31,378 nt of DNA. Origin: a virus. The stretch covers positions 1 through 31,378 of the IMG/VR virus record IMGVR_UViG_3300042691_013488. The stretch is one strand, 5' to 3'. Shown one piece after another: positions 28,244-28,380 of this stretch (within the stretch, counting starts at the first letter, position 1; every line of letters begins with the position of its first letter). The translations under genes and the position numbers were made by a program. Below the pieces are notes generated by a model. The model was not told the origin of the DNA, made no database searches, and worked only from the letters and a program-made list of their open reading frames with translations.

Positions 28244-28304
28244 GGCAGGGGAAAAACGATAAGAGTTTCTATTAGCATAAGTAACTCTAATCTACACCAC
28301 TGCC
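28244..28304 (-). ncRNA. Structured RNA module 2, Y-RNA-like candidate
   Basis: On the - strand these 61 bases fold into one long hairpin. The outer stem is GGCAG/CTGCC (28304-28300 with 28248-28244), then one T.C mismatch and GG/CC. An internal loop follows, with a U-rich 3' side (GTTTTT). The inner stem is GATTAGAGTT/AACTCTTATC (28292-28283 with 28267-28258) with one T.T mismatch, and the terminal loop has 15 bases. Its first 14 bases match module 1 at 13 positions. It ends 28 bases before the TROVE start codon. Y RNAs share a long helix with a pyrimidine-rich loop. No known Y-RNA sequence motif is exactly present, so the name is provisional. Confidence 0.5.
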
Positions 28305-28316
28305 AGTATTCAGAAA

Positions 28317-28380
28317 GGGAGGGAAGAAACGAATCCAGCTTTTACATCCCAAAGAAGTAAGCCAGCTCTACACCACTCCC
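28317..28380 (-). ncRNA. Structured RNA module 1, Y-RNA-like candidate
   Basis: These 64 bases have the same architecture as module 2: outer stem GGGAG/CTCCC (28380-28376 with 28321-28317), then the same T.C mismatch, then G-C and G.U. The third pair of the stem is G-C here and C-G in module 2, a compensatory exchange. The inner part is weaker: GCT+TAC pairs with GTA+AGC across a two-base bulge, closing an 11-base loop that contains TTTGGGA, reminiscent of a tRNA-Pro anticodon loop. It is not a normal tRNA: there is no T-arm consensus. It lies five bases downstream of a candidate -10 element. Confidence 0.5.

Follow-up and report, generated by a model that had tools for sequence, protein, structure and literature searches.

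Two RNA hairpins upstream of a phage Ro60-type gene as candidate stem-only Y RNAs

Introduction

Between an SSB gene and a Ro60-type (TROVE, Rsr) gene of a bacterial virus lie two tandem RNA hairpins, and this locus raises the question of whether they are small RNAs of a Ro60 system, control elements of a messenger, generic processing signals or a recent duplication. The window, i.e. the whole stretch of 31,378 nucleotides that was analysed (IMG/VR record IMGVR_UViG_3300042691_013488), is DNA of a small bacterial virus with its own Ro60-type gene and two upstream RNA hairpins. Its portal protein is distant kin of portals from phages of about 40 kb. A sequence-only reading of the locus had described two tandem modules at 28244..28380 and had hinted at Y RNAs. 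The modules are present but are read on the minus strand, on which the gene order is SSB, hairpin M2, hairpin M1, TROVE, DNA methylase and a NinB-like gene. Very probably, the hairpins are a pair of stem-only Y RNAs from a phage Ro60 system; their binding and function are inferred. Phage Y RNAs as a kind have already been reported; the pair in the window is a stripped-down form in which no tRNA-like domain was found. The Y RNA reading is based on a conserved covarying stem, on linkage to TROVE genes with agreement in strand, and on a stem type that matches the TROVE clade.

The TROVE locus and the anatomy of the hairpins

The features of the locus are given below, where R1 stands for a covariance model built from the hairpins and MFE for the minimum free energy fold.

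28415..28831, minus strand: SSB gene, directly upstream of the hairpins (Pfam SSB, 4e-34)
28317..28380, minus strand: hairpin M2, upstream candidate Y RNA, 64 nt (sequence, MFE fold, R1 54.7 bits, E 9e-14)
28354..28376, minus strand: 5'-arm family motif in M2, GTGGTGTAGA-N6-TTACTTC, exact match; the same motif adjoins TROVE genes in many phages
28244..28304, minus strand: hairpin M1, downstream candidate Y RNA, 61 nt (sequence, MFE fold, R1 60.2 bits, E 2e-15)
28278..28300, minus strand: 5'-arm family motif in M1, GTGGTGTAGA-N6-TTACTTA, exact match to the window pattern
28272..28278, minus strand: apical loop of M1, AUGCUAA, anticodon-loop-like (U33, R37, A38), putative tRNA mimicry in view of the family TNNNRA enrichment
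26912..28216, minus strand: TROVE/Ro60 (Rsr) gene, 434 aa, presumed protein partner (Pfam TROVE 2.4e-16 and vWA; phrog_850 1.2e-40)

The TROVE protein consists of a HEAT-repeat part and a vWA domain with the MIDAS motif DVSGS. Its AlphaFold2 model (pLDDT 91) matches Ro60/Rsr structures, among them the phage Ro60 of phiLo (9L5Y), with query-normalised TM scores of 0.61-0.79. The HEAT ring and vWA fold by which Ro60/TROVE proteins are recognised are thus found by Pfam, phrog_850, the AlphaFold2 model and the structure comparison. The gene lies on the same strand as the hairpins, and its start codon is only 27 nt past the end of M1. Scans for promoters and terminators recognised nothing specific to the hairpins.

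Both hairpins have the same architecture. M2 is made up of an outer stem (GGGAG/CUCCC), a bulged U, the pairs GG/CC, an internal loop, an inner stem and an apical loop, and M1 of an outer stem (GGCAG/CUGCC), a U bulge or U.C mismatch, and then the same series of parts. The third closing pair is exchanged, G-C in M2 and C-G in M1, as had been noticed before; likewise, the sequence confirms that 13 of the first 14 bases are identical (GGGAGTGGTGTAGA and GGCAGTGGTGTAGA), that the 3' arms are pyrimidine-rich and that the inner stems have different sequences. The internal loop, which is asymmetric and conserved, reads YGUA/UCGNNUGUU, and the bases between the arms number 9 and 12 in the two window hairpins. 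In folding, M1 reaches -19.6 kcal/mol, a stability well beyond that of its shuffles (z -3.9), and M2 reaches -20.9 kcal/mol with z -1.0. The folding energy of M2 is therefore unremarkable and would not by itself prove this hairpin, for which the evidence comes from homologues.

The sequence-only reading had also placed a T.C mismatch at the same position in both closing stems. The position holds, and across the family the feature is better taken as one U bulged from a 7-bp stem: in the MFE fold of M2, one bulged U stands opposite a contiguous CCC, and RNAalifold on 24 homologues gives a single bulged U in all 24, in the outer stem beside the asymmetric internal loop. A fourth C in M1 makes mismatch and bulge indistinguishable there.

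A motif family linked to TROVE genes

The 16-position motif of the 5' arms occurs exactly twice in the window, against 0.12 occurrences expected even with three mismatches allowed. In blastn against phages, the locus gave only a 21-nt match, located beside a crAss TROVE gene. A search of public collections with the pattern GTGGYGTAGA-N6-TTACTTC gave 81 viral stretches and 45 bacterial ones. Of the viral loci, 66 of 80 had a TROVE ORF within the fetched stretch, as did 21 of the 45 bacterial loci; with a control pattern whose spacer has 7 bases (N7), the count was 2 of 11, and both of these control loci also bear elements of the hairpin family. In a non-exhaustive classification covering 87 TROVE loci, each of the 154 elements shares its strand with TROVE; 136 precede the gene, 16 follow it, and 2 fall inside the ORF as called. 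Sets of stem-only hairpins are present at other loci too, for example three at L077 and two at L058.

These data bear on the idea that the hairpins have a general role in processing or stabilising the mRNA, or act as attenuators, between SSB and the gene that follows, with no relation to TROVE. Their place between two same-strand genes would fit such a role, but the sequence-specific motif is tied to TROVE and always on its strand, and no terminator was recognised at the hairpins, which makes this explanation very improbable.

A cis-acting operator is another explanation. In this case, the hairpins would belong to the leader of the TROVE mRNA, the TROVE protein would bind them to control its own translation or mRNA decay, and no free Y RNAs would exist. 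The 27 nt between M1 and the start codon agree with this, as does the usual upstream placement among the relatives, at a median of 222 nt from TROVE. Against it, the 16 downstream elements include those of the crAss phages, a single locus can hold up to 8 copies, and many elements bear tRNA-like domains and Rfam YrlA matches, which suits trans-acting RNAs. A purely cis-acting role is therefore considered unlikely, though cis operator and trans Y RNA roles could coexist.

The covariance model R1 points to the same linkage. In seven other phage genomes or contigs, R1 matches sit around TROVE; in the 280-kb genome of CcrColossus, eight matches lie within 1.2 kb beside this gene, and the crAss phages have two each. 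Five bacterial genomes of 1.3-8.2 Mb have one to three matches each. Motif matches without TROVE score below 24 bits with R1, except one that shares its contig with a TROVE locus. In Arthrobacter phage Atuin, R1 copies flank the very divergent Ro gene. No R1-type stem was found within 3 kb of the TROVE genes of Thermus phage phiLo and Vibrio phage SRILMA (L164, L165), so not every phage Ro60 has an R1-type RNA. As a separate observation, the eight CcrColossus elements (L010 2761-3956) are tandem Y-type RNAs upstream of TROVE, one of which is a tRNA-Gln in the GenBank record.

Covariation and selection for structure

The exchanged closing pair had been taken as a sign of selection for structure, and folding and covariation analysis of homologues had been proposed as a check. 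With this analysis carried out, both helices covary strongly. For the inner helix, six positions were compared, with the 3' arms chosen via outer pairing only: 456 of 546 pairs are formed, against 307±9 after dealing the 3' arms among loci, and none of 10,000 shuffles was as high. For the outer helix, with four positions and 3' arms chosen via inner pairing only, the values are 288 of 324 and 130±9. Together, the two independent permutation tests and the covariation score bear out selection for structure. This score was obtained from 24 short-loop hairpins, including both window modules, the sequences of which come from a 37-kb contig whose TROVE protein is identical. In this set, 87% of cells are paired, 11 pairs are changed on both sides, both-side changes number 110 versus 41 after shuffling, and the score is 0.596, against 0.20 after shuffling and no more than 0.16 when the pairings are slid. 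The set was partly selected by outer pairing, a bias that the outer-helix permutation test avoids. Folds and covariation thus agree on a conserved stem, formed by the 5' and 3' ends and interrupted by a bulge and an internal loop.

Comparison of the hairpins also bears on a recent tandem duplication of one hairpin followed by a chance compensatory change, which the sequence-only reading had argued against. M1 and M2 are identical in 42 of 65 aligned columns, as a duplication would predict, but the identical positions are mostly those conserved in the family. Outside the family-conserved columns, 10% of hairpin pairs from unrelated phages are at least as alike as M1 and M2, and M1 resembles hairpins from other phages (0.71) more than it resembles M2 (0.65). 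A recent duplication is largely refuted by these comparisons and is exceedingly improbable.

Stem types, YrlA and TROVE clades

In many relatives, the loop of the R1-type stem holds a full-length match to Rfam YrlA (RF02553) of 39-50 bits, compared with a cut-off of 69. As these YrlA matches lie inside the R1 matches, in phages as well as in bacteria, the same stem also carries YrlA-type domains. A YrlA search of 399 genomes from one bacterial class gave matches in 29, and a TROVE ORF was within about 1.5 kb at 19 of the 20 loci fetched from this search. In the 31-kb window, Rfam YrlA and tRNA had no match, relaxed thresholds also gave no YrlA, and no further R1 element was found besides M1 and M2. 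The 37-kb contig with the identical locus likewise had no YrlA and no further R1 element; both contigs may be incomplete. A mir-248 match of Rfam in the window (E 0.05) was rejected, being well below its cut-off.

Two Ro60-linked stem types can be distinguished, the classical GGCGAAUGC/UUGUCGCC and the R1 type GUGGYGUAGA/UCGNNUGUUCCC, each with its own TROVE clade; the loci L167-L172 and L173-L186 are separated in this way. In a quick tree of TROVE proteins, in which the L014 row is labelled R1 though its R1 match is marginal, the classical-stem group forms one side of a branch with an SH-aLRT of 100, and the R1 stem goes with the phage-like clade. Since the stem type tracks the TROVE type, direct recognition of the stem by the protein is suggested. 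The adjoining TROVE gene and the family-wide linkage bear out the earlier hint of Y RNAs.

tRNA-like features

Chen et al. are said to have reported in 2014 that every species possesses at least one Y RNA of the tRNA-like type. The loops between the arms of the window hairpins, 9 and 12 nt long, hold no tRNA-like domain of the YrlA kind. The earlier comparison of a TTTGGGA loop with a tRNA-Pro anticodon loop finds weak support: this sequence belongs to M2, where it is not closed as a 7-nt loop, but the M1 loop AUGCUAA does fit the anticodon-loop pattern, and apical loops of the form TNNNRA are enriched in the family, with 8 of 28 short-loop elements (1.3 expected) and 21 of 42 tRNA-bearing elements (1.9 expected). 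The anticodon-like apical loops of the family may be a remnant of a tRNA-like part.

Another arrangement was observed in crAss001, cr106_1 and at least four other phage loci, namely tRNAs of normal order in which the R1 stem takes the place of the anticodon loop. The stem strands are in swapped order within these tRNAs, a circular permutation of the YrlA layout. The elements have 6-7 acceptor pairs, and several reach 44-50 bits with Rfam tRNA. Those with paired acceptor ends are:

L009 5624-5767: normal-order tRNA with Y stem, crAss001
L007 about 5540-5680: normal-order tRNA with Y stem, cr106_1
L008 6142-6283: normal-order tRNA with Y stem
L002 about 2488-2620 and 2631-2767: two normal-order tRNAs with Y stem
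L050 2367-2502, minus strand: normal-order tRNA with Y stem
L061 about 1500-1630, minus strand: normal-order tRNA with Y stem
L106 13625-13750, minus strand: normal-order tRNA with Y stem

An apparent further case at L150 4831 was rejected, being probably a junction between tandem YrlA-type RNAs. In Xanthomonas phage Olaya (L012 3803-3873), the tRNA-Asn called by ARAGORN belongs in fact to a YrlA-type Y RNA, as its tRNA-like part, a case which indicates that tRNA annotation close to phage TROVE genes needs care. Brevundimonas jumbo phages have a tmRNA gene of the permuted type close to the TROVE locus (L011 7369-7714 and L015 7789-8046), and cr106_1 has a one-piece tmRNA (L007 1365-1668).

Comparison with known Ro60-Y RNA systems

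The window hairpins resemble YrlA and DrY in lying beside a Ro60-type gene on the same strand, in occurring in several copies per locus, in pairing their ends in a stem with a bulge and an internal loop, and in having same-stem relatives that bear a YrlA-type domain. Unlike YrlA and DrY, they are hairpins of 61-64 nt without a tRNA-like domain. Their stem differs from that of classical Y RNAs, and Rfam does not recognise them.

In vertebrate Y RNAs (hY1-hY5), the Ro60-binding stem likewise has 7 bp, with a single pyrimidine bulged out and a larger number of unpaired bases on the other strand (PMC4726728). This likeness is one of general anatomy, and no sequence relationship is claimed. The Ro60 of phiLo is a phage-encoded protein with a fold like that of the window protein, from a phage lacking an R1-type stem within 3 kb of the gene. 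Listeria phage CKA15 has an Rsr homologue with highly transcribed upstream RNAs that were suggested to be Y RNAs (PMC12282133); these are likened to the window RNAs by their place upstream of the gene. The same 2025 paper cites Chen et al. 2014 for mycobacteriophage Y RNAs. In Deinococcus radiodurans, a Y RNA serves both as the tether between Rsr and PNPase and as a gate for RNA (PMC4726728, PMC7790460), and the tRNA-like domain of Y RNA is thought to bind PNPase (PMC8394870).

Proposed mechanism and significance

In the proposed mechanism, two small noncoding Y RNAs would be encoded in the SSB-TROVE intergenic region and transcribed along with the TROVE gene. The phage Ro60 ring would recognise the outer stem of 7 bp, with its one bulged U, and the asymmetric internal loop, much as vertebrate and bacterial Ro60 proteins recognise their Y RNA stems. 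More tentatively, and by analogy with D. radiodurans, the bound Y RNAs might gate RNA access to the ring or tie the ring to a partner. As no tRNA-like tethering domain was found, gating, or some partner of the anticodon-like loop, would be likelier than a YrlA-type PNPase tether.

In a wider sense, the data could describe a phage-type Ro60 lineage with its own Y stem in three layouts: stem only, permuted-tRNA YrlA-like, and normal-order tRNA with the stem as anticodon loop, the third of which would be an unpermuted link between tRNA and Y RNA. The window phage would then show that a Ro60 system can run on stems only. We regard this wider picture as evenly balanced between right and wrong. The Rfam YrlA model misses stem-only Y RNAs, and R1 alone finds two to eight copies at many phage TROVE loci. 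Stem-only systems separate the gating role from tethering via the tRNA-like domain, and with a 434-aa protein and two hairpins of about 60 nt, the window would offer a natural Ro60-Y RNA pair of compact size, suited to direct tests of the minimal recognition element.
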